From contig NZ_JAEHGE010000001.1 in assembly GCF_016097415.1 (NCBI RefSeq), positions 831,001 through 895,000 on the forward strand: a stretch of 64,000 nucleotides of DNA, in the 5' to 3' direction. The notes beneath the pieces were generated by a model that was given only the letters and a program-made list of their open reading frames with translations, had not been told where the DNA came from and made no database searches. The position numbers were made by a program, and so were the translations under genes. Source of the stretch: a sulfur-oxidizing endosymbiont of Gigantopelta aegis. GTDB taxonomy: Bacteria > Pseudomonadota > Gammaproteobacteria > GRL18. How positions within the stretch are numbered: position 1 is the stretch's first letter; every line of letters starts with the position of its first letter. Shown here in pieces: positions 43,201 through 60,623 of the stretch.

Positions 43201-43216
43201 CATAAATGTATATTAT

Positions 43217-43248: not shown

Positions 43249-43262
43249 CTCTATCGTTCAGT

Positions 43263-43929: not shown

Positions 43930-43931
43930 TT

Positions 43932-43977: not shown

Positions 43978-44011
43978 TAAAAACTATGAGGAGAACCAGA
44001 ATTTTCTAAAG

Positions 44012-44069
44012 ACATAACGCCTAAATCATGGGGGTGTCTCTTTGCCTCCCATGCATTTTTTGGTTATGT
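44012..44069 (-). other. Integron attC site (complete)
   Basis: A 58-bp imperfect palindrome on the minus strand runs from ACATAACCAAAAAATG to TTTAGGCGTTATGT with a central GGCAAAGAGAC spacer. The stop codon TAA of the upstream HTH antitoxin gene lies inside the ATAAC half-core, as is typical for gene cassettes. The arm sequence is almost the same as at 54312-54369. Confidence 0.68.
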
Positions 44070-44363: not shown

Positions 44364-44679
44364 TTCCGAACTCCAATTCAACTGCATTTTTTAGAGCTGA
44401 CAATTGATCTTTTGTTAAATCACTAAGTTCATTTTTTTCATAAATGAAAAGCATGTAAATTTGGTCTTTGTTTTTCTCCCAATAATAGATTATGCGGGAA
44501 CCACCTCTTTTTCCTCTTCCACTACCACTCCAACGGATTTTTCTTATACTACCACTACCTGTAATTATTTTTCCTGTATCTGGTGATTCAATAAGTTCAT
44601 TTTGAAGCTCTCGATAAATTTCTTCATCCATTAAGCGGTTGATACGTTTTGTAAACGTGTGGGTTTCTATAATGACCAT
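44356..44679 (-). CDS. RelE-superfamily toxin (HigB2-like)
   Basis: A 107-residue toxin beginning MVIIETHTFTKRINRL and containing the family region GTGKI-like TGSGSIRKIRWSGSGRGKRGGSRIIYY followed by IYMLFIYEKNELSDLTKDQ. It is paired with the HTH antitoxin. The start at 44679 coincides with the predicted transcription start (the -10 box TATACT ends seven bases earlier), which would make the message leaderless. A longer frame to 44697 would begin upstream of that start and is unlikely. Confidence 0.87.
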   Translation of the reverse strand: MVIIETHTFTKRINRLMDEEIYRELQNELIESPDTGKIITGSGSIRKIRWSGSGRGKRGGSRIIYYWEKNKDQIYMLFIYEKNELSDLTKDQLSALKNAVELEFGNG

Positions 44680-44685
44680 ACATAA

Positions 44686-44713
44686 AGTATACGTCATTGA
44701 CGCACTTTGTCAA
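44686..44713 (-). promoter_or_regulatory. Strong promoter with embedded operator for the HigB2/A2-like pair
   Basis: The minus strand has TTGACA (44708-44713) and TATACT (44686-44691) separated by 16 bp. The spacer begins, next to the -10, with the palindrome CGTCATTGACG (44692-44702), an ideal place for repression by the antitoxin. Confidence 0.7.
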
Positions 44714-44758
44714 TTAGAAAAATGAGGTTGTCGAATTAAGTGTGCAGAATGTTGAACA

Positions 44759-44829
44759 CATAACGACAAAGCTGTGCGGCGCAAACGAAGCGCAGCGTAG
44801 TTTGCGTCCGAACGAGCGCCTTGTTATAA
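44759..44829 (-). other. Integron attC site
   Basis: On the minus strand TTATAACAAGGCGCTCGTTC... ends with ...GCTTTGTCGTTATGT. Inverted arms CGGACGCAAACTACGC and GCGTTTGCGCCG-like sequences surround a CTGCGCTTC spacer. It begins seven nt after the stop of the membrane-protein gene and directly precedes the promoter of the next toxin gene, so it separates two cassettes. It belongs to a different arm family from the other sites here. Confidence 0.62.
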
Positions 44830-44836
44830 GGCATTT

Positions 44837-45283
44837 TCATGGTTGCGCTTTCACTACGGAAAATGCCACTGACAAAACCAAAATAAATATTCCTGCGCTA
44901 AAAGTACCGATTTGCCACCAAAAAATACCCCACGTCTTTTTTCCTAGTTTTTTTGTGAGTTCACGAAGATCCGCTAACTCAGATTCATTACCATCTTTTC
45001 GTTTTAGATTTGTTATTTTTGCTATTGCCCTAAAATCTCTTAGCCGATTTATGGTGCACCATATACCTAATGCGCCAGACGCTAGTAAAAGCAATAAAGA
45101 CAGAAAAAACGCATAAGCTTGGCAAGAGGTAGGCTTAAAGTTTTCACTTATTAGTAATGACACTGAAAAGCCAATAGCAGCGACTGAAAATGTGAGGATG
45201 AGATTTATAGAATAGGATAGCTGGGAAATTGTAATACCCTGCCATCTTATAAATTTCTCATCGTTGTTGCTATTGTCGGACAT
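44837..45283 (-). CDS. Hypothetical membrane protein, integron cassette gene
   Basis: A 148-residue protein with hydrophobic helices at about 25-46, 56-76 and 122-145 and a polar loop (KITNLKRKDGNESELADLRELTKKLG) between them. No known family recognised. The start is 19 nt after a GTTATAAGG sequence (45297-45305) that resembles an attC core, and an attC follows the stop, so the gene fills one cassette exactly. The predicted frame on the opposite strand here is a shadow. Confidence 0.65.
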   Translation of the reverse strand: MSDNSNNDEKFIRWQGITISQLSYSINLILTFSVAAIGFSVSLLISENFKPTSCQAYAFFLSLLLLLASGALGIWCTINRLRDFRAIAKITNLKRKDGNESELADLRELTKKLGKKTWGIFWWQIGTFSAGIFILVLSVAFSVVKAQP

Positions 45284-45597
45284 TATTGTTTTGCCTTATA
45301 ACAGTTAAATCTACTGAAACATGATGATTAGAAATACACGCGTCCGTATTTCTAAATATTATTGCCGATTTCAATAAAAATATCATTAAATAAGGATGAG
45401 TTGACGTTGGTGCATGTGACTTGCTGCTATCTGGAAGAAAAGAGAGATTTATCCACATCATATGACTGGCCGTTATAGGTCATCAGCAGCTATTGATGAG
45501 AAAATTAGATTTTTTATCAAAATAATCTGTTAATTGCAGCTGCCGTCCTCAAACAGTTTTTCGGCATAATTTTGAGTGGCAACGACAAATATGAGAC

Positions 45598-45870
45598 TTA
45601 CACAATTACAATCTTACAACCTAATGCTTCAACAACTTTCTTAATTGTATCAAACTTTGGAGTGCCATTTTCTGATAATGACTTATATAAACTTTGTCGA
45701 TTAACACCCGCTTGATTGGCTACATCTGTCATACCTTTTGCTCTTGAGGCAATATTGAGTGCATGAATGAAATCATTACTAGTGCCAGTCTGAGAAACTT
45801 CTGTCAGAAACTCTTTTATATCTTCATCAGAATGAAGATGTTCAGCTATGTCGAATTTATTTGTTTTCAT
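45598..45870 (-). CDS. Addiction-module antidote protein
   Basis: A 90-residue antitoxin with an XRE-like helix-turn-helix: IASRAKGMTDVANQAGVNRQSLYKSLSENGTPKFDTIKKVVEALG. This is the sequence style of the antidotes paired with HigB-like plasmid-stabilisation toxins. It starts three bases after the toxin's stop, a coupled toxin-first operon. No convincing attC was found directly after it. Confidence 0.88.
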   Translation of the reverse strand: MKTNKFDIAEHLHSDEDIKEFLTEVSQTGTSNDFIHALNIASRAKGMTDVANQAGVNRQSLYKSLSENGTPKFDTIKKVVEALGCKIVIV

Positions 45871-45873
45871 GAT

Positions 45874-46173
45874 TTATTCCAATTCTTTCAGTATTTCACT
45901 GGCTTTATTAATATCTTTGTTTTGAGTGTTTTTATCTCCACCATTTAACAAGAGAACAACTTTATTACCTTTTATTGTGTAATAAATTCGATAACCAGAA
46001 CCAAAGAAAAAACGTAATTCAAATACATTATTTTCAGATGTATCACTCCAATCCCCAAAGTTACCATTTTCAATGCGGGCAAATCTTGCAAGTATGCGTC
46101 GTTTGGCGGTTAAATCTTTTAATTTATAAAACCATTTTGAGAAAATCTCTGTTTCTTCTATTTCATATATCAT
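45874..46173 (-). CDS. HigB-like addiction-module toxin
   Basis: A 99-residue RelE-superfamily toxin starting MIYEIEETEIFSKWFYKLKD, with the characteristic RIENGNFGDWSDTSENNVFELRFFFGSGYRIYY. I choose the ATG at 46173; upstream ATGs at 46200 and 46191 fall in the operator palindrome. Paired with the antidote gene that follows. Confidence 0.88.
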   Translation of the reverse strand: MIYEIEETEIFSKWFYKLKDLTAKRRILARFARIENGNFGDWSDTSENNVFELRFFFGSGYRIYYTIKGNKVVLLLNGGDKNTQNKDINKASEILKELE

Positions 46174-46181
46174 TAACACAC

Positions 46182-46199
46182 TGTCGCACATGAGCGACA
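46182..46199. promoter_or_regulatory. Operator palindrome of the addiction module
   Basis: TGTCGCACATGAGCGACA is a palindrome with six-bp arms located directly before the toxin start, a typical antitoxin-binding site. Confidence 0.5.
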
Positions 46200-46307
46200 T
46201 CGTGTCAATATGTTTTTGATATTATCAATAATATTTAACATTCCATTTTCTGCTGTTTTCTGATGGATTATTAAGTGTTCAGGCATTCATTTTTGTGCTG
46301 AGGCGAG

Positions 46308-46362
46308 TAGCCGCTATGGAGGAATTCAAGAATAATTCCTATTTGGTAGTGAGTGGCGGCTA
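46308..46362. repeat. Nested hairpin between toxin-antitoxin modules
   Basis: The outer arms TAGCCGC/GCGGCTA (46308-46314 and 46356-46362) enclose AGGAATT/AATTCCT (46320-46326 and 46334-46340). No gene overlaps it. The surrounding 46200-46500 holds no other feature apart from a diverged repeat noted in the findings. Confidence 0.5.
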
Positions 46363-46504
46363 AAGGTCAAAATCGTACAGAATGAAATGACTGTTCCCAT
46401 CCAAAGAAGCTATTTTTAACCATTTTTACATCCATTCCAAATGACCGCTAATTGTACATTGCTACGAGAGAGAATTATCATATCAAAGCCGATAAGGCTA
46501 TCTA

Positions 46505-46780
46505 TTAAGTAGCTTTAATTTTTATTTCAACTTCTTCGCCCATAGAAGCTAACATGTTAACCAACATATCCAAGCTGAATAAATCAATTTTACCTCGTAG
46601 TAAATCAGATATTCTAGGCTGTGTGACCCCCAGCTCCTTAGCCGCTTTCTTTTGTGTCCAACCATTCATCTCAATGGTCTGCCTGATCTGCAGCATTAAG
46701 TCTGATCTTAATTTCATATTAAGTGATTCTTGGGGAGTATCCATAATGGCATCCCACACACTATTATACCGTTCTCTCAT
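46505..46780 (-). CDS. XRE-type antitoxin
   Basis: A 91-residue protein whose C-terminal half is an XRE helix-turn-helix (IRQTIEMNGWTQKKAAKELGVTQPRISDLLRGKIDLFSLDMLVNMLASMG), as in antitoxins paired with Gp49-like toxins. The start codon shares a base with the toxin stop (TAATG), so translation is coupled. Confidence 0.88.
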   Translation of the reverse strand: MRERYNSVWDAIMDTPQESLNMKLRSDLMLQIRQTIEMNGWTQKKAAKELGVTQPRISDLLRGKIDLFSLDMLVNMLASMGEEVEIKIKAT

Positions 46781-47100
46781 TATTTATCCCCAATCTCTTT
46801 TAGTCGTTTTTTAGCTAGATCAATATCTTCCTGGCGTGTTTTTTGATCTTTTTTCTGAAAGGCATGTAAGACATAAATAGCCTCTTTAAATTTAGCAATA
46901 TAAATTGTTCTGTAGATCCCATCAGATGCTGACACTCTAATTTCATTCACTCCAGAACCAATATTGGTCATTGGTTTCCAATTGTCCGGTTTCAAACCAC
47001 TCTGTACTTTGTGTAATTCATAGCCAGTTCTTTGCTTGGCTATATCAGAGAACAACTGAATGTTTTCTAGGGAGTTACCTAAAAATTCTAATTCTTTCAT
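46780..47100 (-). CDS. Phage-derived Gp49-like/HigB toxin
   Basis: A 106-residue toxin starting MKELEFLGNSLENIQLF. It contains the family signature GVNEIRVSASDGIYRTIYIAKFKEAIYVLHAFQKKDQKTRQEDIDLAKKR. The start at 47100 is preferred over 47115, which lies in the operator. It forms a pair with the overlapping XRE antitoxin. Confidence 0.88.
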   Translation of the reverse strand: MKELEFLGNSLENIQLFSDIAKQRTGYELHKVQSGLKPDNWKPMTNIGSGVNEIRVSASDGIYRTIYIAKFKEAIYVLHAFQKKDQKTRQEDIDLAKKRLKEIGDK

Positions 47101-47107
47101 ACAACAA

Positions 47108-47127
47108 CTATACAAAATATTGTATAG
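47108..47127. promoter_or_regulatory. Operator palindrome of the Gp49-like module
   Basis: CTATACAAAATATTGTATAG is a 20-bp palindrome with eight-bp perfect arms, just upstream of the toxin gene. Confidence 0.55.
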
Positions 47128-47243
47128 AAAATCAAGTAACTACGCTTCAAAGCTTAACTCTTAATAAAATGACTGCTCCTACCAACAGAAGTCATTTTAA
47201 TCATCATTTACAATGGATAAACATGACCGTTATTTGTAGATTT

Positions 47244-47533
47244 TTGTCATTCTATTAAATATGAAAAATGAATATTCTCTGTTTTTGAATGGCTACTTTC
47301 ACACTTCGAACGTGAGTCTGTAAAAATCTATCTATTACTGCAATGGGATGATAGCACTAAGTCACGGCTACACAGATTGCCTGCTCTTATTCGGTAAACG
47401 GTCACTTCATAAAAAAAGGGCTAATTGGTTCATTTATGCTGATGGCTGACGACTTAATACCATCAATTTGCTAATGATTTTAAGTAACAGTTTACTGGAA
47501 AGTTGGGAATCAATCTTATTTGACTTGAATAGG
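47244..47533 (+). repeat. Long direct repeat, copy 1
   Basis: A non-coding block of about 290 bp that recurs at 54514-54795. The second half (from GGATGATAGCAC to GACTTGAATAGG) is nearly identical and differs mainly by an eight-base insertion here, after AAAAAGGGCT. Copy A/B transposase sequence begins directly after its last base in this copy. Confidence 0.85.
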
Positions 47534-47534
47534 A

Positions 47535-47632
47535 AAACTATTATTGCCACCCACCAAATAGGAAAACTATTATCAAACTATTATTGCCACCCACCAAATA
47601 AAAAGCAAACTATTATTGCCACCCACCAAATA
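47535..47632 (+). repeat. Tandem repeats at the 3' edge of RAYT copy B
   Basis: A 26-bp unit, AAACTATTATTGCCACCCACC plus AAATA, occurs at 47535-47560, 47575-47600 and 47607-47632 with 14 and 6 bp between. These are repeated versions of the element's terminal GGTGGGTGGCAATAAT sequence. Confidence 0.75.
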
Positions 47633-48360
47633 AAAAGTAATATCAAAGCTAAATTGTAAAAAAAATTCTTCTCGAAATGTAAATTTACAAAATTTGAATG
47701 TTTTTCAGTGGAGTGGGTAGTGAATGGGGTAGTAAAAGTAGCTGCTAGATGGGGTTGCTCTGCATGACGAACAAGGGGAGACCTGCATTGTTCTGCTAAG
47801 GTGTGTGCTTTGGTAGGCTGTTATGTTTAAGTCGTGACGGGGACGGCAGAATCGATTTTAAATAATTTCCTACACAAATTAATACCGCGCACCCAATGCC
47901 GTTTTTGTTTCAGACATAAGGATTTTAATTGTTCTTCCGGGCCAACAAAGGAATGAAAGCCCTTTGAAAAACCATCGACTGTTTCTAGCCAAGTATCTTC
48001 ATTGAGTTGTAATTTTTGTAATATAGCCGGAGTGCCCAATTTGATATAGCCACGTTTATCATCCCTCTTTATTCGCCCCGTCCATTCTGCAAGTTCCAGA
48101 TAGTCGTTAAGGTCAAAGGCAATACCCTTGTCTTTGAGTGAGCTACCGATAAAGGGGGCGAGCTTAATAGTGGCTGTGCTTTGTTGCGTTATTTTTTGGC
48201 TAATGCTTGTTGTCTTTTTAATTGAGTCGATACGCTGTTTTACTGAGGTGTAATCAGAGTCTTCTAATGTTTGGCTGATATCCGCTCTGATGGGATTTAA
48301 ATCAACATAGACCATGCAGCTAAGAATGGCTTGCTCATCAAGCAATGCCTGACTCTTAAA

Positions 48361-50040
48361 CCTAAAAACCGCAGTAGCCCCTGCAATGACATAAAATCCT
48401 GCAAAAAATTTCTTTTAGCTGAACGGTTTTGTCTAGGCTGGAGCAGGTAGCTTAATTTGTCGTGATTTATCTGAAACCAGTTCAAATTTTTCCATCGCTT
48501 TCTCTAAAATATAGCCCCAACACTCATCTAAAGTTAACTGCGGAGCAATTGCTTTAAGTTGTTTAAAAAACTGATTTAATCGCTTGTATATTCCCTGCAA
48601 TTTTTTCACGTCACCATGGTTGCTGGTAATGAACATTTTCTTTTGGTTGCCTGATTTTGTTAAACGTCCAATACTACTCAGTAATAAGGGACGGCTTGTG
48701 ATGGCTTCATGGTGTTTTTCTGGAATGGCTAAACGAACAAATAAATTCCACCAATTATAAACCAACGCAATCATTCGAGACATGAACTGACAACTCTTAA
48801 TATCTTGAGTGGCATATCCACCCCAGCCCCATTTTTTCATTTCATCAAAGTTATTTTCACAGTCCGCTCGGTCACGATAATGGTAAAACATTGAGACTAA
48901 GTCATCTTCTAAATCAGTCACTAATACGGAGTACTCATAGGCTTTAATATTTTCCTGTCCATCAACAAATACCATCTCTTGTTGACCCTCTTTTTTGTAC
49001 TCAATGGCCACCATGTTGTCATTAGATAAACGTCGGCGGATAATAACAACTCGGCGTGGCATTTCCCAACCATCCAGCTGAATATCATCATCCTTAGCTT
49101 CCCAACCTTTACGAACAACTGTCCATTCACCTAAGCCATGATGCTTTCCTATAAGCTCTTTAACGTTTTTGAACGTTTAAGCTTGAACAGATAAGGTTGA
49201 TTAATACTCTCCAGTTCTTTCATGAATTTATCCGTACCATAACCAATATCACCTCGAACAAATTCCGGTCTTTCATCGACCGAAAAACGTTTGAGTAAGC
49301 TCATTAATCCAGGTAATGAATGGTTTGAATGTGCCTGGTTTCCAGATTGAACTTCAACCTCTAACACTAAACGAGTATTCGCCATCATATAGGTATGATA
49401 GGTGTGTGATGGTCGTCCTGGCTTTTGTGGATTGTAGCCTATCTTGGCACCTTCCTGATGTCCATAAAGCGGTTTAACTGTGATATCAGCATCTAAAATC
49501 CAGGGTGTTTTCAGTAAGGGGAATAGCTGGATTGTAAATGTGTCTGTAACCATTTTATTCCCATTTCTTCATCAATCTTTTTTAAACCTCGACGTGCAGA
49601 ATCATCACTCACGACTTTACTCATGCCTAATAATTCAGAGTTGACTCGATCACTCATTAAATTCGTTATATGAGCATAACGCTTATGACCGGATAAAATG
49701 GATAAAAATAATGAACCCAGCACATCAATTTTTTTAGGGGCATTATTGCTTTTGTAATGAAGTGGGCAATCATCAACCCAGGGTTGAAATCGACCACCGA
49801 GTTTTAGAAATTGAATAAAAAATGGAAGTTGACCTATCGGAGTAACGGCTGCATCAGGATCCCATTCGACTTGTAATTTTCCACCATAAGTCTCTACTTC
49901 AACCGCTTCAAATAGGTCTGTTTTCTCGGGCAATTGGGATACACCCATAGGGTGAATGACTTTTGGCGGTAATTTCATGATATTTCACTATAAATTCAAC
50001 AGGTTATGATTATAGCCGATTTTTAACTGATTTTTATAGG
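48361..50040 (-). mobile_element. IS1380-family insertion sequence
   Basis: A 1680-bp element with ends CCTA.AAAA (left CCTAAAAACC, right inverse of CCTATAAAAATC) and the 5-bp target duplication TTAAA on both sides (48356-48360 and 50041-50045). It is inserted in the RAYT transposase gene. Confidence 0.88.
48433..49978 (-). pseudogene. IS1380-family transposase, two frameshifts
   Basis: Three consecutive frames together make one transposase: start at 49978 (AVEVETYGGKLQVEWDPDAAVTP..., YAHITNLMSDRVNSELLGMSKVVSDDSARRGL), then ILDADITVKPLYGHQEGAKIGYNPQKPGRPSH with the first catalytic aspartate and VRGDIGYGTDKFM, then DRADCENNFDEMKKWGWGG with the catalytic glutamate region. Frames change near 49530 and 49100-49150. 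The element is therefore probably immobile on its own. Confidence 0.87.
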
Positions 50041-50650
50041 TTAAAACGTCCTTCCCAGAAACGGCCCGTACATTTATCTTCAGCATTGGCTCTGCGAGCA
50101 ATGTGTTCATTGAGGCAACGCATGAACCAACTGATATCCATTAACCGGTCTCTGAAGACGGCAATGGTTTCCCGAGCCTTGTCTTGTTCAGCCTCAGAAT
50201 GGCTTTCACCATTAAGGTAGCGTTCTACCAATACTGGAATTGAACAAAGTTGTTGCCAGTGTTGTATCACGGTTTCATCCGACCAACTTTGGGCGAGTGA
50301 GGCGTTGATTTTTAACACGGCGTGTATATGGTTGGACATAATGCTGTAGGCACAGACATCAATGGCAAAGGTTTTTGATAGTAAAGCGAGTCGCTCAACA
50401 AACCATTGTTTACGATGGCTATAGTCTTTATTGGTGACAGTATCGACACCACATAAGAATGTTCTGCGGACACAGCGAGAGATGCAATGATAGTAAGGGG
50501 TATCTGAAAGGCTGATTTGTTGGCTTCTTGGGGTGGGCATTTGATTAACTCCATTTAATCGGGATGACGGCTAGAATGGAGAGTATACAATGTAATTGTA
50601 CGTTATTCAATTGGTGCTATTTCAAGAACATTTGTTTCAGCTTATTATTT

Positions 50651-50743
50651 GTATTACACTGGGTTTAGATCATGGGTGGCTATGATTGGTTTTTTTTTTG
50701 TATTACACTGGGTTTAGATCATGGGTGGCTATGATTGGTTTTT
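50651..50743 (+). repeat. Tandem duplication of 44 bp
   Basis: A segment beginning GTATTACACTGGGTTTAGAT is repeated at 50651-50694 and 50700-50743, period 49 bp, immediately before the gene at 50804. The copies are identical over the unit and lie in non-coding sequence. Confidence 0.85.
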
Positions 50744-50803
50744 CTATGATTGGTTGAAGAAGTTATAGCTGCAAAAAGTAGCACAAATAAAGGAGAGTAA
50801 AAA

Positions 50804-51121
50804 ATGGATATTTATGAACGTGATTATATAGCAGCCGTTATAAACTATTTTTGGGGGCCAAATATCACTACTTCGCAAGGTGTAAATAAATCAGCGGCGG
50901 TAGTTGCTTATAAGGCACTTGAGAAAGCAAATATATGCTCGAGGTCAATGGATCTGGTTCCTCGACCTATGGGGTTGCCAAGCTCCACCTATGCAATAAA
51001 ACAGTTGGCAAAAATTGGGAAAAGAATAATGTCGGGTAATTCTTTGATATATCATGTGTGTAAAGTACGGGTTAGTGCAAATGATAAAACAGACATACTT
51101 ATGGCACTAAGGGGGATTTAA
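50804..51121 (+). CDS. Hypothetical protein
   Basis: A 105-residue basic protein (MDIYERDYIAAVINYFWGPNITTSQGV...) with a strong ribosome site AAAGGAGAG before the ATG. It contains an Ala/Lys-rich middle (SAAVVAYKALEKANICS) and YAIKQLAKIGKRIMSG. No family recognised. It is followed one base later by the start of the interrupted exported protein, so the two may form one operon or cassette. Confidence 0.55.
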   Translation: MDIYERDYIAAVINYFWGPNITTSQGVNKSAAVVAYKALEKANICSRSMDLVPRPMGLPSSTYAIKQLAKIGKRIMSGNSLIYHVCKVRVSANDKTDILMALRGI

Positions 51122-51280
51122 TATGTTAAGAATTGCTCTTACTTCAGTTTTATTAATGTTATCTTTAAACGTTTTTTCTAGATCGGCTATAGAACTTGTA
51201 TACTCTGAATTAAAAATTACTTAGATTCAACTCATAAGTGCAACACTATTTGGTTGTATTTGTGATATTTGCTGGTTTAT

Positions 51281-51350
51281 CGCTGGCTCATGAAATTCCC
51301 GGGGTGGCCGAGCGTAGCGATGGCCACCCCGGGAATTTCATGAGCCAGCG
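51281..51350. repeat. Perfect 29-bp inverted repeat inside IS30
   Basis: Arms at 51281-51309 and 51322-51350 (CGCTGGCTCATGAAATTCCC...) are perfectly complementary around a 12-nt loop, GAGCGTAGCGAT. A weaker hairpin AAAATGGCC/GGCCATTTT follows at about 51408-51440, before the transposase start. The strong hairpin could shield the gene from outside transcription or be an inserted REP element. Confidence 0.8.
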
Positions 51351-51464
51351 ACGCGACGCTGACGGCGCTACTAAAAAAATCATAAGTACAGCAATGATTT
51401 GCTCGAAAAAATGGCCAATTGCTTGTAAAATCGGCCATTTTCTCCTGCAAGAGTAAAGTGACTT

Positions 51465-52460
51465 ATGAGAACTTACAAGCAATTGACACAAGAACAAAGA
51501 TACTACATTTCGACTGAGATTAAAAATGGCATTTCCCAGTCTAAAATTGCTCAGGCGATTGAGGTGAGTAAATCTACTATATGCCGTGAAATTAAACGCA
51601 ACGCTGGTTTACGTGGCTATCGATTTAAGCAAGCTCAAGAAAAAGCCGTTAAGCGTCGCTACAATGCTTCTAAAGCAATTAAAATGACGGATGACATGAT
51701 TGCCCTTATTGATGAAAAGCTTTCACAGCACCAGTGGAGTCCTGAACAGATATCAGGTTGGTTACTGAATGACAAAATGCTACTTCTTAGCCATGAACGT
51801 ATTTATCAACACATATGGGATGATAAGAAGCAAGGTGGTGATTTACATCAGTATTTAAGGCGTCAGGGAAAGAAATACCAAAAGCGTGGTAGTAACGGTA
51901 AAAGCAGTCGAGGACAAATAATTAATCGAATTTCCATTGATGACCGTCCTAAGATTGTTGATGATAAACGTCGTGTTGGTGACTGGGAAATTGATACAGT
52001 GATCGGTAAAGGACACAGTGGTGCTCTGGTCACGATTGTAGAAAGAAAAACGCTTTACACATTAGTAGCAAGAGTGAATGGCAAACAGGCTGATTGGGTG
52101 ACACAAGCAACAATACAATTGCTTAAACCCTTTAAAGACAGGCTTCATAGTATTACCGCAGACAATGGTAAAGAGTTTGCTTATCATGAGCAGGTAAGCA
52201 AAGCTCTTGATACAGCATTTTATTTTGCCCACCCTTATTCTTCATGGGAGCGAGGGTTAAATGAAAATACTAATGGACTGATTAGACAATATTTTCCTAA
52301 AGATACAGACTTTAAAGAAGTGACTGATAAAGAGGTTTACAACATGATGGAAAAACTTAATAATAGACCTAGAAAGGCACTCGGCTTTCAAACACCATTC
52401 CAGGCAATGAAAAAATCATTTGCAAGAACTGGAATTTCCTGCGTTGCACTTCAGAGTTGA
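51465..52460 (+). CDS. IS30-family transposase
   Basis: A full-length transposase of 331 residues. The N-terminal helix-turn-helix is YKQLTQEQRYYISTEIKNGISQSKIAQAIEVSKSTICREIKRN. The catalytic core has WEIDTVIGKGHSGALVTIVERK (first Asp), TADNGKEFAYHEQV (second Asp) and WERGLNENTNGLIRQYFPK (Glu). It has no defects, so the element may be active. Confidence 0.94.
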   Translation: MRTYKQLTQEQRYYISTEIKNGISQSKIAQAIEVSKSTICREIKRNAGLRGYRFKQAQEKAVKRRYNASKAIKMTDDMIALIDEKLSQHQWSPEQISGWLLNDKMLLLSHERIYQHIWDDKKQGGDLHQYLRRQGKKYQKRGSNGKSSRGQIINRISIDDRPKIVDDKRRVGDWEIDTVIGKGHSGALVTIVERKTLYTLVARVNGKQADWVTQATIQLLKPFKDRLHSITADNGKEFAYHEQVSKALDTAFYFAHPYSSWERGLNENTNGLIRQYFPKDTDFKEVTDKEVYNMMEKLNNRPRKALGFQTPFQAMKKSFARTGISCVALQS

Positions 52461-52882
52461 ATCCGCGTTAACTTACCAGGTGGTTTTACGCTGATTGGTG
52501 ATATGGGTGGGCAAGATAACATTCTTATCTTTAGGTATGGTAATGAAAAAGGAAAGAAATACATTGCGTTTACAGACATGACTAACGATATTACCATTGA
52601 ATATGGATGTGCTGTAAATGTTTTTTATAATGATCTTTTTTCTGAGAATAAGAATACCAGCTGTAATCTCGAGAACCTTGATATAATGCGTAAAACGTTT
52701 ATTGAAAATAAAGATGTAGTTGTATGGAAAATTAATAACTATATTTTGAACTATTCGTCAGGAAAAGATAAATCCTTTTTATTTCTTAGTGGTAGAAGTG
52801 GCAAGCTAATAAAAGTAGATTCAGACTTTATAGATAAAAAAATATACAAAAATATTTTTAAAAATATTTAATCAGAGTGACT

Positions 52883-52966
52883 ATAATAAATGATTGCTCA
52901 TGGAAAATTTTGTCTTTGGCTGAAAAAGCGCCAATGACAAAATTTCCGGAGAATCAAACGTTAGGT
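52883..52966 (+). other. attC-like palindrome
   Basis: GATTGCTCATGGAAAATTTTG at 52891 pairs imperfectly with CAAAATTTCCGGAGAATC at about 52938, and the structure ends with the core site GTTAGGT (52960-52966), a perfect GTTRRRY. It starts about 12 nt after the stop of the interrupted exported protein. Confidence 0.5.
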
Positions 52967-53023
52967 GCCAAAAAACGCCCAGCGTCTAGCAATTTCAACT
53001 TCACAGGGCGTGAAGATATTATT

Positions 53024-53293
53024 ATGGATTCTAAAATTGCTGAGGAACTGAAACAATTTGAAGAACATCTTGATGATATTACATGTTTAGAGTGTGGTTA
53101 TGAAGGTACTGTTGGAATTATAAGCGAAGAACCTACATTCCATTTTTGGAAATATTTTTTATCTACAGCTTCATTTGTATTTTCCATTTTTGTAATAGGC
53201 TTATTTGTAGATAATGAATCAATGATATTGTACCCACTTTTAAGTATTGATTTATCTTCAAAATATTATCCCTATCCCATATATGTGTGGTAG
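53024..53293 (+). CDS. Zinc-ribbon membrane protein, possibly frameshifted
   Basis: An 89-residue frame with MDSKIAEELKQFEEHLDDITCLECGYEG (a CxxC knuckle), then a membrane helix (FWKYFLSTASFVFSIFVIGLFV). In the next frame the sequence after the end reads MCGRNFEVHCPN, which looks like the continuation with further cysteines, so a frameshift near 53285 is likely. No family recognised; the ribosome site is weak. Confidence 0.4.
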   Translation: MDSKIAEELKQFEEHLDDITCLECGYEGTVGIISEEPTFHFWKYFLSTASFVFSIFVIGLFVDNESMILYPLLSIDLSSKYYPYPIYVW

Positions 53294-53385
53294 AAATTTT
53301 GAAGTCCATTGCCCTAACTGAAAAAAAGACATTGAGTTGACTTATAAATATTGGAACTAATCAATACAATATGGAGAATGATAAA

Positions 53386-53511
53386 ATGGCTCAAGTTGAA
53401 AGCAAATCAAATATTTCTATTGATATTGAAGTAAAGGCAAGAACCGGAGAAAAAAAGGGGCATATTTCAATAACAAGTGGTAACTTGTACTATTATCGAG
53501 TAAATGCCTAA
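53386..53511 (+). CDS. Small hypothetical protein
   Basis: A 41-residue frame (MAQVESKSNISIDIEVKARTGEKKGHISITSGNLYYYRVNA) with GGAG nine bases upstream of the ATG. The alternating hydrophobic/polar pattern suggests beta strands. No family recognised. It ends 27 bp before the ISL3-derived MITE. Confidence 0.4.
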   Translation: MAQVESKSNISIDIEVKARTGEKKGHISITSGNLYYYRVNA

Positions 53512-53538
53512 AATGAAACCGCAATATACACATTTTTG

Positions 53539-53737
53539 AGTTCTTCTCCGCTTTGATGAGTGTAAATCCACATTCAAAACCCTGTTAAACATTGATACAT
53601 AAAAGCTTTTCTTATCAAGAAGGCTTTTTATAGTTTTACCTATACACATAACCTTGCTTATGTTGATCAGCCAAATAAAGATGAGCTCTATAGACTGAAA
53701 TGGATAAGTTGTTCACTCATCAAAGCGGAGAAGAGCC
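53539..53737. mobile_element. ISL3-derived MITE
   Basis: A 199-bp non-coding element whose ends (AGTTCTTCTCCGCTTTGATG and the inverse of GGCTCTTCTCCGCTTTGATG) match those of the ISL3 element at 17202-21201. It is flanked by the 8-bp duplication CATTTTTG (53531-53538 and 53738-53745). It is a non-autonomous derivative. Confidence 0.88.
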
Positions 53738-53747
53738 CATTTTTGCA

Positions 53748-53766
53748 ACTAATTGACGCCAGATAC
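53748..53766. other. Solo end of an IS21-type element
   Basis: AACTAATTGACGCCAGATAC differs at one or two positions from the outer right end of the IS21 element at about 20427-20446 (GTAGTTGACGCCAGATAC). No other IS21 sequence is nearby, so this is a remnant or chance match. Confidence 0.35.
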
Positions 53767-53852
53767 TTAATTGAACAAGATGTGGAAAATAAATAAATCT
53801 GTTTTTATACTAAGTTTCGAAATTACATATTCAGTTGAGGATAAGGGGAAAA

Positions 53853-54035
53853 ATGAGTCCAACTGTATTTAGAGAAAAGGGACACAGGTTCTTCTTTTTC
53901 TCAAGAGAGGAAGACCGTATGCATGTTCATATTTTATCAGGTGATGGGGAAGCTAAGTTTTGGCTTGAACCAGAAATTGAACTCGCAAAAATTACAATTA
54001 TTCAAGAAAGCATCTTAAAGAAATTGAATCAATAG
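53853..54035 (+). CDS. DUF4160 family protein
   Basis: A 60-residue protein beginning MSPTVFREKGHRFFFFSREEDRMHVHILSGDGEAKFWLEP, which is the DUF4160 pattern. The ATG at 53853 follows GGGG; an upstream TTG at 53835 is less likely. DUF4160 and DUF2442 genes are commonly paired, toxin-antitoxin-like, but no activity is established. They are followed by an attC, so the pair forms an integron cassette. Confidence 0.85.
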   Translation: MSPTVFREKGHRFFFFSREEDRMHVHILSGDGEAKFWLEPEIELAKITIIQESILKKLNQ

Positions 54036-54047
54036 TGGAGGTTCATT

Positions 54048-54317
54048 ATGATGAACTCATTAGCGCATGGAAAAAACACTTTAGCAGTTGAGGTGACAAA
54101 TGTTTCAGCTCATGGAGTATGGCTTTTAACTTGTAGTAATGAATTATTTATGTCATTTGATGATTTTCCTTGGTTTAAAAACCAAACCATTGAATCTATT
54201 GTTAATGTTGAAGAACAATCATCAGGTCATTATTACTGGCCTGATATTGATGTTGATTTAACAGAAGAAATGATCGAGCACCCAGAACGCTTTCCTCTTA
54301 AAGCGAAAATTACCTAA
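54048..54317 (+). CDS. DUF2442 family protein
   Basis: An 89-residue protein with the DUF2442 pattern VTNVSAHGVWLLTCSNELFMSFDDFPWFKN...HYYWPDIDVDLTEEMIEHPERFPL. It starts 12 bp after the DUF4160 gene with GTGGAGG as ribosome site. Its TAA stop (54315-54317) is inside the ACCTAAC core of the attC, the characteristic cassette arrangement. Confidence 0.88.
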   Translation: MMNSLAHGKNTLAVEVTNVSAHGVWLLTCSNELFMSFDDFPWFKNQTIESIVNVEEQSSGHYYWPDIDVDLTEEMIEHPERFPLKAKIT

Positions 54318-54369
54318 CCAAAAAATGCATCGGAGGCAAAAAGACGCCCCGATGATTTAGGTGTTATTT
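54312..54369 (+). other. Integron attC site (complete)
   Basis: A 58-bp site starting with ACCTAAC, a perfect RYYYAAC core. The arms AAAATGCATCGGAGGC and GCCCCGATGATTTAGG pair except for an extrahelical G in the left arm (ATGCATCGG against ATCATCGG), as in functional attC hairpins. It ends with GTTATTT. Confidence 0.72.
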
Positions 54370-54513
54370 TACTCTGATTTCATCCAGCATTCAGAGCCTA
54401 TAACTTATCTTTTTGAGCATTTCAATTAAAAAATAATTTGACTGCTTTATTGGACAAAAAATTGTATTTGCAGGTAATCAAAGCGGTGTAAAATGTCCGC
54501 TTATTGTACTTTT

Positions 54514-54795
54514 TTGTCATTTGAGTGAACGTTAAAAATGAATATTATCTGGTTTTGAATGTCCGCTTTCTCACTTCCAACGTGAGCCCATAAAAAGTTC
54601 CGAATAGCAGCTAAGGGATGATAGCACTAAATCACGGCTACACAGATTGCCAGCTCTTATTCGGTAAACGGTTACTTCATAAAAAAAGGGCTCATTTATG
54701 CTGATGGCTGACGACTTAATACCATCAATTTGCTAATGATTTTAAGTAACAGCTTACTGGAAAGTTGGGAATCAATCTTATTTGACTTGAATAGG
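54514..54795 (+). repeat. Long direct repeat, copy 2
   Basis: This is the uninterrupted version of the block at 47244-47533. It continues past GAATAGG into CGGAATGGCTC without transposon sequence. Its content is non-coding as far as I can see. Confidence 0.85.
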
Positions 54796-54806
54796 CGGAA
54801 TGGCTC

Positions 54807-55106
54807 ATGACAGACCTGAATAAGAAAAGACTCATATATCTGCTTTACGCCCAAACCGACTGGATTAAGAAGTTACTAGCTCAGATTCGTCAAATTTTTG
54901 GGGAGGGGCTTCCACATAGCCCCATATTGAGGCTTTTATTTAAGAAAAATGAAAAAATCATTGCTCATAAATTAATAAAAGTTGACTTTTATACTAAAGT
55001 ATTCTTAAATATGACCATAAATCATTGTTTTATAACCATATTTTATATAAGGTTATTTGTTTTTAGCCCTCCTCTCATTTTATCAGGGAGTGAAAAATGT
55101 GTTTAA
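54807..55106 (+). CDS. Doubtful hypothetical frame
   Basis: A 99-codon frame (MTDLNKKRLIYLLYAQTDWIKKLLAQIRQIF...). No ribosome site is evident and the second half is low-complexity hydrophobic sequence. The first 35 residues look more protein-like and may be the remnant of a larger gene. I would not trust a product. Confidence 0.2.
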   Translation: MTDLNKKRLIYLLYAQTDWIKKLLAQIRQIFGEGLPHSPILRLLFKKNEKIIAHKLIKVDFYTKVFLNMTINHCFITIFYIRLFVFSPPLILSGSEKCV

Positions 55107-55128
55107 ATTTATGCTTTTAGATGAAAAA

Positions 55129-55156
55129 GTGGCAGTAATAACAAGTAACGTATAAT
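55129..55156 (+). promoter_or_regulatory. Candidate dsrA promoter
   Basis: The consensus -10 TATAAT (55151-55156) has a weak -35 GTGGCA (55129-55134) at 16 bp. The predicted leader is about 20 nt with the strong ribosome site TAGGAGGA. Confidence 0.5.
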
Positions 55157-55184
55157 AAGTATTAAGTATAAGTAGGAGGACATT

Positions 55185-56444
55185 ATGTCTAAGGTAACAA
55201 TTTACGATACGCCCATGCTAGATGAGTTGGAAAATGGCGAATGGCCTAGCTTTATTACAGCGTTTAAACGCTTAAGAGATGACCATCCAAGTGAGCGCAT
55301 TAATTCAATGGTTGGCGGACTATTAGGCCAACTGGAACATTCCTACGAAACTCGTATGGGTTGGTGGAAAGGTGGAACAGTTTCTGTCTTCGGTTATGGC
55401 GGTGGTATTATTCCTCGTTTCTCTGAAGTGGCTGAACATTTCCCTGAATCAAAAGAATTTCACACAGTCCGTGTACAGCCACCTGCGGGCAACTTCTATA
55501 CAGCTGACATCCTGAATCAATTAGCTGACGACTGGGAAGCTCACGGTTCTGGTCTGCAAACATTCCACGGTCAGACTGGTAACATCATGTTTATCGGTGC
55601 AACCACGGATGAAATGCAACCATTCTTTGACAAAGTGAACTCCTATGGTTGGGATTTAGGTGGTGCTGGACCTTGTGTTCGTACTGCAATGGCCTGTGTC
55701 GGTGCTGCTCGTTGTGAACATTCTTGTACTAACGAACACGGCATGATGCGTCACTTGGTTAACGAATTCCAAGATGACTTACACAGACCAGCTCTTCCAT
55801 ACAAATTTAAAGTAAAAGTCTCTGGTTGTCCTAACGACTGTACCAATGCCATTGAACGTGCTGATATGGCCGTGATTGGTATTTGGCGTGATGAGATGAA
55901 AGTTGACCAAACAGAAGTGAAAGCATTCGTTGCTGACAAAGGCCGTGACTACGTCATTGATAACGTTACTGACCGTTGCCCAACCAATGCCATTAAACTG
56001 GCAGATGATGACACCTTAGTCGTTAACAACAAAGAATGTGTCCGTTGTATGCATTGTATCAATGTTATGACCAAAGCCTTAGCGCCTGGTGATGACAAGG
56101 GTGTGACCATCCTAATCGGTGGTAAGCGTACACTGAAAATTGGTGACATGATGGGTACTGTTGTCGCACCTTTCTTGAAAGTAGACACCATGGAAGAAAT
56201 CGAATATCTGGTTGAACTGACTGGTGAAATGATTGATTTCTTCGCAGAAAATGCTTTAGAGCATGAACGTACCGGTGAAATGATTGAGCGTATCGGCCTG
56301 GTTAACTACCTTGAAGGTATCGGTCTTGACTTAGATCCCAACATGGTTAGCGAACCCCGTCAGTGTTCATACGTACGTATGGATGGCTGGGACGAAGAAG
56401 TTAAGAAGTGGTATGACAAAAAAGCTGAAGCGGCAACTGCTTAA
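55185..56444 (+). CDS. dsrA: Dissimilatory sulfite reductase alpha subunit
   Basis: The catalytic subunit of the sirohaem sulfite reductase. In sulfur oxidisers the reverse enzyme turns stored sulfur, delivered as persulfide, into sulfite. The 419-residue protein is full length. The sirohaem-[4Fe-4S] ligands are C171/C177 (CVGAARC) and C215/C219 (SGCPNDC). The ferredoxin-type cluster has C265, C285, C288 and C291 (DRCPTNAI and ECVRCMHC). It has its own promoter and strong terminator and no dsrB follows, which is abnormal because DsrA and DsrB form an alpha2-beta2 enzyme and are usually adjacent. Confidence 0.96.
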   Translation: MSKVTIYDTPMLDELENGEWPSFITAFKRLRDDHPSERINSMVGGLLGQLEHSYETRMGWWKGGTVSVFGYGGGIIPRFSEVAEHFPESKEFHTVRVQPPAGNFYTADILNQLADDWEAHGSGLQTFHGQTGNIMFIGATTDEMQPFFDKVNSYGWDLGGAGPCVRTAMACVGAARCEHSCTNEHGMMRHLVNEFQDDLHRPALPYKFKVKVSGCPNDCTNAIERADMAVIGIWRDEMKVDQTEVKAFVADKGRDYVIDNVTDRCPTNAIKLADDDTLVVNNKECVRCMHCINVMTKALAPGDDKGVTILIGGKRTLKIGDMMGTVVAPFLKVDTMEEIEYLVELTGEMIDFFAENALEHERTGEMIERIGLVNYLEGIGLDLDPNMVSEPRQCSYVRMDGWDEEVKKWYDKKAEAATA

Positions 56445-56467
56445 GTTTTTTCGTTAACATTGCGCTT

Positions 56468-56505
56468 AAAAAGCCACTTAGATGCAAATCTAAGTGGCTT
56501 TTTTT
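56468..56505 (+). terminator. Intrinsic terminator after dsrA
   Basis: The 15-bp stem AAAAAGCCACTTAGA / TCTAAGTGGCTTTTT has a six-nt loop and runs into a T-tract. It isolates dsrA from the next gene. Confidence 0.93.
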
Positions 56506-56568
56506 ATTTTAGATTTAAAAATGCTTTATACTCAAAGAAAATAAAAATTTCTTAATCGAGAGCATCTC

Positions 56569-56913
56569 ATGGCTACCAGTATTACTTTTCATAGTGAACA
56601 AGCAATAATCTATTTTTCAGAGCAAGAACAATACTTTGTTTTACAATTATTTTTTTATGATGTATCCCGACAGGCAATGATGGATAATCAAAATAAAATT
56701 AACTTATCCTTCGATCAATGTGAGCAAAATGGTGCGGTACTAAAAGATGGGATTAGCTTTGAAATGGAGTTAAATATTGAGTCTTGGGAGGATATTTCTG
56801 AACAAGAAGCGGTCTATCCTGAATTAGGCAATGACTTTATCTGTGGCTTGTCAAAACAAGATAAGCAATGGTTTAGTGAGCGATATCAGCAAGCTTGTGA
56901 GCGTTTAATTTGA
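56569..56913 (+). CDS. Hypothetical protein
   Basis: A 114-residue acidic protein (MATSITFHSEQAIIYFSEQEQYFVLQLFFYDV..., ending KQDKQWFSERYQQACERLI). It has no signal peptide or membrane helix, and ribosome site spacing is ordinary (GAGAGCATCTC). I do not recognise a family. It stands between the dsrA terminator and the convergent cupin gene. Confidence 0.6.
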   Translation: MATSITFHSEQAIIYFSEQEQYFVLQLFFYDVSRQAMMDNQNKINLSFDQCEQNGAVLKDGISFEMELNIESWEDISEQEAVYPELGNDFICGLSKQDKQWFSERYQQACERLI

Positions 56914-56968: not shown

Positions 56969-57340
56969 TTATTCTTCCTCCAAAGTATAATAATTTTTTT
57001 GTTCAAAGCGAGGCGTGCAGATACATAAAAATACCAATTCCGTTTGCCCGGTATTTTCAATTTTTTGTGCGACATCAGCAGGAATGCTAATACTATCCAG
57101 TGCAGATACCTCTTCAGGTGCTTCATGATTAATGAAAACTCGCCCCTGACCAGACAAAATAATATAACGCTCAATGGTGTTTTTTAAGGCGTGTAACTGC
57201 GTGCAAATTCCCGGCGCAACAGCAGCACGAGCAATAGAACATTGACTATCACCCGCATGGTTGAGCAATTCATTTATGGTGCAGCGCTCTGGTGTTGAAA
57301 ATTGCTTGTTGGGATCATAGGGGGTTAAATAGGTATTCAA
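56969..57340 (-). CDS. Cupin-domain protein
   Basis: A 123-residue single-domain cupin. The barrel motif is ICTQLHALKNTIERYIILSGQGRVFI, in which one of the usual histidines is kept (LHALKNTIERYIIL), and a second half VSALDSISIPADVAQKIENTG. The metal-ligand set is incomplete, so enzymatic activity is uncertain. It begins 11 bp after the DMT transporter gene, in the same operon. Confidence 0.82.
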   Translation of the reverse strand: MNTYLTPYDPNKQFSTPERCTINELLNHAGDSQCSIARAAVAPGICTQLHALKNTIERYIILSGQGRVFINHEAPEEVSALDSISIPADVAQKIENTGQTELVFLCICTPRFEQKNYYTLEEE

Positions 57341-57351
57341 AAAAATTCTCC

Positions 57352-58275
57352 TTAGCTAAAAAAATGCTTACGTAAAGGCTCATAGAACTGGTGAATAAGC
57401 AGTCCTGATAAAACACAGGCCGTGCCAATAAAAATAGCGCTGGTAATGGTCTCATGATTAAACCATTTGCCCAGTAACAATGCTGTAATAGGCGTTATTA
57501 AGGTTGCCAGTGCCACGGTCGAGGCTGATAGTCGAGATAAGACAAAATAATAACTGACAAAGCCAACGACCGATCCCATGATACCTAAGTAAACAATAGA
57601 CCAGAGTGTGCGTAGGGGTAATTGTTCGGGGAGTGGATCAGCAAATAATAGAAAACTCAGCAGGAACAAGGGCAGTGCAAACAGCAAGCCGCCAGTGGTC
57701 ACAATGAGTGCCGGTAATGGTATATTGAGACGTTTGATTCTAACGGCACTACCCGTGTGTAATATGACTGCAATCAATACTGCCAGCATGCCCATTATTG
57801 CTTCTTCACCCCGGCTGATGCGTTCGATAAATATAATGCCCAGTCCACAAATGCCCACACCGGCACCCCATAATTTATGCCAGCCAAAATGCTCGTTTAA
57901 AGACACATGATTACGCAGCAATAAGACAAAGCCCGTGGTAAAAATGGGTGACAGCCCAAATAGCACCGACACTAGTCCGGAGGGTATAAACTGAGCCCCC
58001 CAATAAACCATCATCATTGAGCCATAAATTGAAAAAGCTGAAGCAGTGTAAACACTACGCGCATTTTTATGCATGGGTATTTTTTTGTGCCATAACAGTG
58101 CCAAGAACAATGCTAGGATGGCACCAATAAGCATTCGAGCCGACACGCCGGTAATAAAATCCAGTCCTTGCGAACTCCATTTGATCGCCAGAGGTGTGGT
58201 TGACCAGATCACAATCATGGCCAAATAAGCCATAGTAACCAGCAGTGAATGATTTGTTTTAGTGGATAGTTTCAT
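57352..58275 (-). CDS. EamA/DMT-family transporter
   Basis: An inner-membrane transporter of 307 residues with ten predicted helices in two EamA repeats (MAYLAMIVIWSTTPLAIKWSS at the start; GFVSYYFVLSRLSASTVALATLITPITALLLGKW in the second). Substrates of such carriers are metabolites or amino acids and cannot be deduced. No ribosome site is evident before the ATG at 58275. An intrinsic terminator pointing into the gene lies only about 12-30 nt upstream. Confidence 0.88.
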   Translation of the reverse strand: MKLSTKTNHSLLVTMAYLAMIVIWSTTPLAIKWSSQGLDFITGVSARMLIGAILALFLALLWHKKIPMHKNARSVYTASAFSIYGSMMMVYWGAQFIPSGLVSVLFGLSPIFTTGFVLLLRNHVSLNEHFGWHKLWGAGVGICGLGIIFIERISRGEEAIMGMLAVLIAVILHTGSAVRIKRLNIPLPALIVTTGGLLFALPLFLLSFLLFADPLPEQLPLRTLWSIVYLGIMGSVVGFVSYYFVLSRLSASTVALATLITPITALLLGKWFNHETITSAIFIGTACVLSGLLIHQFYEPLRKHFFS

Positions 58276-58652: not shown

Positions 58653-60623
58653 GTGGCAAAGCAAATTGGTCGATTTAATCAGGTTAGGGAATTAGGCAAA
58701 GGGACGCAGGGTGTGGTTCATTTGGCAGTTGACCCTGTTCTGCAACGTAATGTGGCGATAAAATCTTTGCATTTCTCTGATATGAGAAAGGCTGAAGAAA
58801 CCAAGGCCATGCTCCTCAAAGAAGCTCGAACTATCAGTAAAATGGTTCACCCCAATATTGTGTCAATTTATGAAGCGGGTGAAGATCAACAACAAAATCC
58901 CTATTTGGTTTTTGAATATGTCAGTGGCCAATTGCTCACGGATGTCATGAAAAAAAAGGGCATGATGACCATTAAAAATGCCCTAGCTTTACTCAAGCCA
59001 GTGATTGAAGCAATCAGCCATGCTGACCAATTAAACATTATCCATTGTGATCTTAAGCCTGCCAATATTTTAATTAATGATGATAATATACCCAAGGTAA
59101 TGGACTTTGGTATTGCCCATGTTTTGTCCAAGCAGCAATCAAAAACCGATGGCTTTTTTGGTACACCGCGTTATATGCCACCCGAGTACATTCGTAAACA
59201 AACCATTTCTGCCAGCAATGATTCTTATGCTCTGGGTATTATTCTCTATGAAATGCTCACAGGCAAGTCTGCTTTTATAGGCAGTAATATCAAGCAAATT
59301 ATCGTTAAAGTATTAAATGACTCTCTTCCTCCTCCTTCAAAATTTAATACTGATGTTGATGCACAATTTGAAAGTATTGTGTTCAAAGCTATCGATAAAA
59401 AATTAGCCAATCGTTATCACAGTACGACCGAATTTAATGCGGCTATTGATGAATATTTGGCAAAGCAAAATTCAACAGTCAACCAGTCCAGTAAAAAGCA
59501 GGATGCAACCATAGAATTTTTGTTGCGTCGTATGAAACGTAAAAAAGATTTTCCAGCCTTATCGGAATCATTGTTTAAGATCAATAAAATTGTTGAAGAA
59601 GATAATACCGGATTTGATGTATTAGCAGGGGCAATTGTCGAAGACTTTGCCTTGACCAATAAAATATTAAAAATTGTCAATTCTGCTTATTATCGTCGTA
59701 GCGGTGGTGAGGTAAAAACCATTTCTCATGCGGTAATGATGTTGGGCTTTGATGCTATTCGTTCAATTGCAGTCAGTTTAATTTTAATTGATCACCTGCA
59801 TGATAAGTCACAGGCAAAGCAACTAAAAGACAGTGTCGTTTCATCTCTCTATAGTGGAGTGTTTGCTAAAAACTTGGCAGAAAAATCACAATTGGTCAAT
59901 AAAGAACAGGTATTCTTGAGTGGGATTTTTCATAATTTGGGTAAGTTATTAACAATTTTTTATTTTAATGAAGAATCATTGGAAATAGAAAAACTCATTG
60001 CAGAAGAAAAATTAGATGAGGAAAATGCCTCGACCCAAGTACTGGGTGTTCCCTATAGTCGCTTGGGGATGGCAATAGCAAAAGAGTGGGAACTTCCTCA
60101 TTACATCGTGAATACTATTAGCCCCTATAATACCAAAGTGAATAGTAAGCGTATGCAGTTAAACGATGAAGAAAAAATGCATGCGATTTGTAGTTTGTCT
60201 AATGAGTTGACCCATCTGATAGAAAATAGTGATGCTGCAGAAGACTGGCGTGAGAAAGCAGTTAAAATCTGGCGTCAATACACCCCACAATTACAACTAA
60301 AGGATAAGGATCTGGTTACTCTGGCTGATCAGGCTAAAGAAGATTTAATTGACTTAAACTCCATCTTGAACATCAGCATGTCAAAGTCCTCTATTATACA
60401 AGGCCTGGATAATGACAATGCAAGCGTAACAACTGCCGACAATGTAGAAAAAACCTTGGTGATTACGCCCACAAAAGGCTCAGAAAAACAGCATGAGCTA
60501 GAAAGTAAACCGCGTGCTATAGAAGAAATTCTAAAGGCTGGTATTGATAATATTGGCACGATGATAAAAGGTGACTATAGTTACAGTGGACCCCATTGTC
60601 AAGACAGCTTTCTCAAATATTAA
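58653..60623 (+). pseudogene. Ser/Thr protein kinase-HDOD fusion, 3' end cut by IS3
   Basis: A cytoplasmic signalling protein. The N-terminal Hanks-type kinase (about 6-265) has the glycine loop LGKGTQGVV, VAIK, HCDLKPANILI (catalytic Asp, with Cys in place of the usual Arg) and DFGIAH. An HDOD domain follows (about 290-500; TNKILKIVNSAYYRR, ISHAVMMLGFDAIRSIA, SGIFHNLGKLL). The last native codons are ...IKGDYSYS; from 60587 the frame runs through the IS3 end and stops after PHCQDSFLKY. Related proteins carry a GAF-like domain after this point, so a C-terminal domain is probably lost. GTG start at 58653. Confidence 0.85.

Follow-up and report, generated by a model that had tools for sequence, protein, structure and literature searches.

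A solitary dsrA gene

The stretch of DNA considered here, the window, comprises 64,000 nt (G000:C1, positions 831001-895000) from the genome of a sulfur-oxidizing endosymbiont of Gigantopelta aegis. It contains a dsrA gene that stands by itself (Table 1). The product matches the DsrA model TIGR02064 over its full length (model positions 1-402 of 402) and scores 570.6 bits, where the cut-off is 392.85; with the dsrB model it reaches 123.6 bits, under the cut-off of 341.5. The closest solved relatives by sequence are DsrA chains, the best being 3mm5_A (E 3.3e-104). Three cysteine motifs of the Cx5C and CxxC kinds, CVGAARCEHSC, CPNDC and CVRCMHC, can be read in the translation, and we take these to bind the siroheme-[4Fe-4S] center and the ferredoxin cluster. 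Thus, the complete dsrA with cluster cysteines that a preliminary description had reported is indeed present.

DsrA normally works only with DsrB. The canonical oxidative dsr operon, in which dsrA is followed by dsrB and further dsr genes, is not the arrangement at this locus: there is no dsrB among the window ORFs around the gene, and the next ORF on the same strand encodes 114 residues without a Pfam match. The gene is closed by an intrinsic terminator, as also described earlier. A strict terminator scan of the 260 nt behind orphan dsrA genes gave hits at 4 of 11 loci (the window, L118, L123 and L124), and imperfect stems with T runs can be seen by eye at L119, L122, L125, L126 and L127; a terminator may not be a general feature of the orphan loci.

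Table 1. Features at and around the solitary dsrA (positions in the window)
Feature	Position	Strand	Remarks
PAS / sigma-54 activator / Fis-HTH regulator	39458-40840	-	80% identical to the G008 gene
Accessory cassette/IS block	40980-54960	.	borders approximate; measured relatives have no such block
Degraded FNR/DNR-type palindrome, ATTGCTCATAAATTAAT	54960-54976	+	ATTGATCYRGATCAAT in most relatives; from alignment
Conserved core promoter region, TTGACT...TATTCTTAAAT	54982-55010	+	predicted; alignment of 14 orphan upstreams
Conserved leader block, 34 nt, TTGTTTTATAACCATATTTTATATAAGGTTATTT	55025-55058	+	single match in own genome
Sigma-70-like match, GTGGCA-16-TATAAT	55129-55156	+	10 of 12; partly within the ~27-nt extra stretch
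Solitary dsrA (DsrA, 419 aa)	55185-56444	+	ATG start; dsrB not adjacent
Intrinsic terminator of dsrA	56468-56503	+	16-pair stem, then T-rich; -22.5 kcal/mol, z = -6.0
Cupin	56969-57340	-	downstream neighbor; 8/11 orphan loci with readable downstream side, window included
EamA transporter	57352-58275	-	downstream neighbor; 5/11 orphan loci with readable downstream side, window included
Ser/Thr kinase-HDOD protein	58653-60623	+	downstream neighbor; 8/11 readable orphan loci, window included

The dsr operon of the same genome

A second dsrA lies about 245 kb away on the same 4.2-Mb contig (C1:1131263-1132521) and is 97% identical to the solitary copy at the DNA level. Directly 3' of it is the sole dsrB match of the genome (C1:1132649-1133722), followed by a run of genes that matches the order dsrEFHCMKLJOP, labels which we assign by gene order. 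The suggestion that dsrA was duplicated, with dsrB elsewhere, is thus borne out by the genome search. The related idea of a dispersed set of sulfur-oxidation genes does not hold for dsr, the operon itself being compact. A misassembly was considered and rejected, since a single contig holds both copies and independent assemblies show the solitary context again.

The two copies belong to the same protein family and are nearly identical, and their likeness is confined to the coding sequence; the flanks are unrelated. After the start, 35 codons differ, 33 silently and 2 with an amino-acid change, at residues 2 (S/P) and 36 (S/N). By a crude majority rule, the rarer state of these 35 codons is found 24 times in the window copy and 7 times in the operon copy, with 4 undecided. 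The operon copy differs in being followed by dsrB, in its GTG start and in having no FNR-type box (see below) within 1 kb. The start codons follow the two kinds of locus: ATG is present at 14 of the 15 orphan-side loci listed, the exception being L150, and GTG at 14 of 15 operon loci, where the listing has the outgroup L151 shifted by one codon.

The dsr operon has on its upstream side, in divergent orientation, a gene for a Cas6-domain protein (L005:5600-6343; PF09559, tested in L005). The protein cluster to which it belongs is represented at 13 of 15 operon loci, with a second dsrC-like gene nearby, and is missing from L149, which is cut, and from the outgroup L151.

Conservation and synteny of the locus

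Two separate long dsrA matches are present in the window genome (G000) and in seven others (G005, G007, G008, G010, G014, G021 and G022, the last with a partial operon copy) among 40 genomes searched, its own included. Several further genomes of the 40 have pieces of dsrA at contig ends, and six others, reached through named loci, have one dsrA each. The orphan loci with a readable 5' side number 14: the window, L118-L127, L129, L131 and L146. Outside this set are L153 (G020) and L133 (G006), which lack the 5' end, and L150 (G019), whose join is doubtful. In L150, a contig of 3.1 kb (G019:C566), an operon-type dsrA start is joined to orphan-side downstream genes; it is probably a chimera made in draft assembly from two alike dsrA copies.

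Between the promoter region and the gene lies a conserved leader block. With up to 3 mismatches allowed, it is found at one place each in 14 of the 24 family genomes, spanning two genera, and a reversed-pattern control gave 0. A dsrB was found in 11 of these 14 genomes, and none was recovered from the fragmented drafts G009, G012 and G013. The block is absent from G001, G002, G003, G006, G011 and G016-G020, among which G006, G019 and G020 hold the partial or doubtful orphan-side contigs L133, L150 and L153. G002 and G003 also have no close homologue of the kinase-HDOD protein, and therefore a regional loss is likely in these two. The leader was also considered as a structured RNA, a possibility that was rejected (z of -1.57 in the window and 0.06 in L118). 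An Rfam search of 54600-56700 gave no match in the leader and four sub-threshold hits, all around the terminator.

The neighbors are conserved as well. A divergent sigma-54-type regulator (PAS, sigma-54 activator and HTH_8 domains) is present in the orphan loci of 11 of 13 relatives; it is lacking in L122, and the L125 contig stops before that point. Downstream, a PP2C-like phosphatase accompanies the gene in 5 of the 11 readable orphan loci, the window included, in addition to the genes listed in Table 1. L119, L122 and L124 have neither this phosphatase nor the cupin, kinase-HDOD and EamA genes downstream.

The promoter region and an FNR/DNR-type palindrome

A perfect palindrome, TTGATN4ATCAA, which we take to be the FNR/DNR consensus, is found in 13 of the 14 orphan upstreams, its center lying 148-240 bp ahead of the start. 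The window is the sole exception. Its palindrome, as aligned with the other orphan upstreams, has altered half-sites and one extra base, and there is no perfect site in the 1 kb upstream of the window dsrA or in the whole window. Upstream of the operon, the motif is missing at 14 of 15 loci, and the remaining one has a site 607 nt away (up to 1 kb was read, at one locus only 394 nt).

Next to the palindrome, the 14 orphan upstreams share a predicted core promoter region; an alternative core is TTGACT-17-TTAAAT, and the -10 assignment is uncertain. The window copy also has about 27 extra nt directly ahead of its start codon, missing in the aligned relatives; this stretch holds a TATAAT and may be a replacement promoter. 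Sigma-70-like matches upstream of dsrA are not above those of shuffled sequence (4 found, against a mean of 5.3), and no sigma-54 promoter was seen by eye in the orphan-upstream alignments. For the earlier claim that the gene has a promoter of its own, the convincing evidence is comparative.

The same motif is in use in this organism, whose genome has 40 sites as against 5 for the reversed control. Three FNR/DNR-type boxes lie between a nirS-like gene and a divergent gene with a cytochrome-d1 domain (L201:8443-9229, own genome). The name nirS here denotes a protein with cytochrome c and d1 domains, for which all NCBIfam models are under cut-off; the cluster includes NirJ and siroheme-decarboxylase genes that pass theirs. 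In the family, the palindrome precedes nirS at 14 of 15 loci, and only 50 nt can be read at the fifteenth. The nirS promoters resemble the orphan dsrA upstreams in this palindrome and differ in that they drive nirS/heme-d1 genes rather than a sulfur gene. In the window genome, the motif is thus kept at nirS and lost at dsrA.

An accessory block between the regulator and dsrA

The distance between regulator and dsrA is 318-584 bp in all 9 of the g1 relatives measured and 2.7 kb in two g3 relatives; in the window it is 14.3 kb. Likeness to the relatives extends on the regulator side to about 40980 and resumes on the dsrA side from about 54960. The intervening block contains genes for an IS30 transposase and a RelE/ParE-type toxin, both above cut-offs, together with an IS1380 remnant and an IS200/Y1-like gene below them. 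Its attC-like repeats were judged by eye, and a possible integron nature is read from these repeats. Other contents of the block are toxin-antitoxin-like small genes, long inverted repeats and a direct repeat of about 310 bp (47220-47533 and 54490-54795, 7.3 kb apart), parts of which are 81% and 98% identical. In the regulator itself, a PAS segment is rich in Cys and His, as also in L121; this segment is a possible redox or sulfur sensor.

The comparison with relatives indicates that the block came in beside a pre-existing solitary dsrA and parted the gene from its regulator. The earlier proposal that dsrA was relocated in connection with the accessory region is not supported, the locus being common to relatives that lack the insertion. 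Because the perfect box is lost, anaerobic control may not hold in the window species, and with control altered, the present role of the solitary copy is uncertain.

Selection and gene conversion

Ka/Ks is 0.02-0.06 in all 8 orphan/operon pairs. Within genomes, Ks between the two copies ranges from 0.14 (own genome) to 1.5. Comparing the operon copies of different genomes gives Ks values of 0.78-2.07 in 27 of 28 pairs, the exception being the closely related G021/G022 with 0.21. The locus is older than the split of the genera, and low Ks within a genome therefore means homogenization.

Identity tracts within otherwise diverged pairs, longer than a random order of differences gives, which is the criterion for gene conversion, were found among the seven pairs that entered the test (that of G022, with its incomplete operon copy, was left out). 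Difference-free tracts span nt 489-984 in G021 (~495 nt), 738-1107 in G008 (370 nt) and 657-852 in G014 (195 nt), each with a permutation P of 0.0005, the floor of 2000 shuffles; these three strongest tracts come from many-contig drafts, in which alike copies could have been mixed. Uncorrected P values for the other pairs are 0.02 (G010), 0.04 (own), 0.12 (G005) and 0.33 (G007), the permutation test thus giving no significant tract in the last two. Quartet-informative sites, summed by hand over 21 genome pairs, group 1641 times by genome, 314 times by locus and 193 times crossed. In the first 84 nt these counts are 112, 65 and 7, indicating that the 5' end retains more of the history of the locus.

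In the tree, the own pair is grouped at a support of 1.00. The orphans of G021 and G022 form a group together with G023, the G014 orphan groups with the operon copy of G002, and the G005 and G007 copies stand apart from their partners. Orphan and operon DsrA show no fixed difference at any amino-acid site. Residue 2 comes nearest, with Ser in 10 of 11 orphans and Pro in 12 of 12 operon copies, and at a few other sites the majority residue differs. The idea that the orphan protein has a fixed functional difference was rejected, and nothing points to a different chemistry.

What the second copy may do

We consider it somewhat probable that the solitary gene is an ancestral extra dsrA, switched on anaerobically, whose subunit pairs with the DsrB of the operon and whose control has changed in the window species. 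The second copy would predate the split of the two family genera. Through its own promoter of the FNR/DNR class, cells respiring without oxygen would make extra DsrA alpha subunit. This subunit, in effect the protein of the operon, would most likely assemble with operon-encoded DsrB, and purifying selection together with episodic gene conversion would hold the two genes alike. In the window species, where the mobile block separates the gene from its divergent regulator and the FNR-type box has decayed, control would have changed, with the protein still intact.

Several observations count against this reading. If TAnnnT is read as the -10, the palindrome is some 2-4 bp too far upstream for the class II place, usually -41.5. 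The copies are far apart in G005, G007 and G010 (Ks 1.2-1.5), and they pair within a genome in only 3 of 8 cases in the tree (G000, G008 and G010, support at least 0.997). G002 (93% complete) and G003 (99% complete) have the dsr operon and nirS and no orphan dsrA, and G010 (100% complete) has the orphan with its box, and its NirS matches are all at or below 36%. Hence, the orphan tracks nirS in neither direction.

A less likely explanation, to be kept in mind all the same, is that the gene is a functionless spare, a leftover duplicate that chance gene conversion from the operon copy has kept alike and that is now decaying in the window species. The degraded box and interrupted locus of the window fit such a spare, as do the missing orphans of G002 and G003 and the excess of rarer codon states in the window copy. 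However, the open reading frame and the leader are conserved over two genera, the leader block is at one place per genome, and the excess of silent changes is strong even where Ks is above 1 and no significant tract is found (G005 and G007). The preliminary description had held that a second intact dsrAB operon would make this copy merely a spare. That operon is present, but the conclusion does not follow, because the copy has been kept in two genera under purifying selection with a conserved leader of its own.

Duplication of the alpha subunit only is a real puzzle for the reading as an anaerobically switched partner of DsrB and leaves room for a role of DsrA without DsrB. Under anoxia, the protein might act alone, either as a siroheme enzyme on nitrite or sulfite or as a store of siroheme beside heme d1 synthesis. 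None of the 24 f1 genomes has more than one dsrB match, and the motif class is common to the nirS/heme-d1 genes, which draw on siroheme. Thiobacillus denitrificans, a denitrifier by name, also has a dsrA without dsrB (PMC2702494). Against such a role stand the normal dependence of DsrA on DsrB, the lack of any fixed amino-acid difference between orphan and operon DsrA and the presence of an orphan in G010, which has no nirS orthologue, and we regard it as rather improbable. Finally, a recent duplication carried by the neighboring mobile region, whose end lies about 225 bp upstream of dsrA, is scarcely credible, given that independent assemblies of relatives have the same locus without the block and that the likeness to the operon copy stops at the coding ends and includes no mobile sequence.

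A broader proposal is that in this family a dsrB-less dsrA couples sulfur oxidation to anaerobic (nitrate) respiration. Under anoxia, a regulator of the FNR/DNR class would raise the amount of alpha subunit, resulting either in an excess of DsrA with a role of its own (siroheme-dependent chemistry on nitrite or sulfite) or in a changed supply of DsrAB, and gene conversion would tie the sequence to that of the operon copy. We put it forward as speculative and on balance doubtful.

Comparison with known systems

The usual view of DsrAB is of an obligate alpha-beta enzyme whose genes come as a pair, and dsrA serves as a marker for microbes of the sulfur cycle. An alpha-only copy that is conserved and has a switch of the anaerobic type raises the question of why one subunit is made on demand, and such a copy could link sulfur oxidation to anaerobic respiration. 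In dsrA surveys, the orphan would double or blur the counts for this group; several draft contigs end inside dsrA.

Solitary dsrA is uncommon and recurrent. Among the best 80 of 586 named dsrA loci, 70 are followed closely by dsrB, 5 break off within 10 nt of the match and 5 are solitary, all of these from the family of the window (G004, G005, G008, G019 and G022). Class-wide, with at most four candidates scored per genome and dsrB looked for beside second copies, dsrA was found at E <= 1e-90 in 117 of 369 genomes and in two copies in 13, two of them in the window family. The second copy has an adjacent dsrB in 9 of the other 11, is cut at a contig end in G380 and is solitary in G339. Second dsrAB pairs (e.g. 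G078, G105, G169, G178, G332 and G354) thus resemble the present case in having a second dsrA in one genome and differ in having a dsrB of their own beside it. The solitary dsrA of G339 (L174, G339:C90), from another family of the class, is independent, and its protein is 88% identical to the operon DsrA of that genome; no dsrB was found within 4 kb downstream and no perfect box in 9.3 kb.

A literature search on dsrB-less, extra or converted dsrA found nothing closer than T. denitrificans, in which dsrA copies are unlinked to dsrB (Beller 2006, as reported in Loy et al. 2009, PMC2702494). This sulfur oxidizer likewise combines clustered dsrAB with dsrB-less dsrA, there in a single species that has two extra copies, at 78-83% DsrA identity. 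The family of the window, in contrast, has one extra copy (97% DNA identity in the window genome), present in two genera and marked by a shared leader, an FNR/DNR-type box and conversion tracts.
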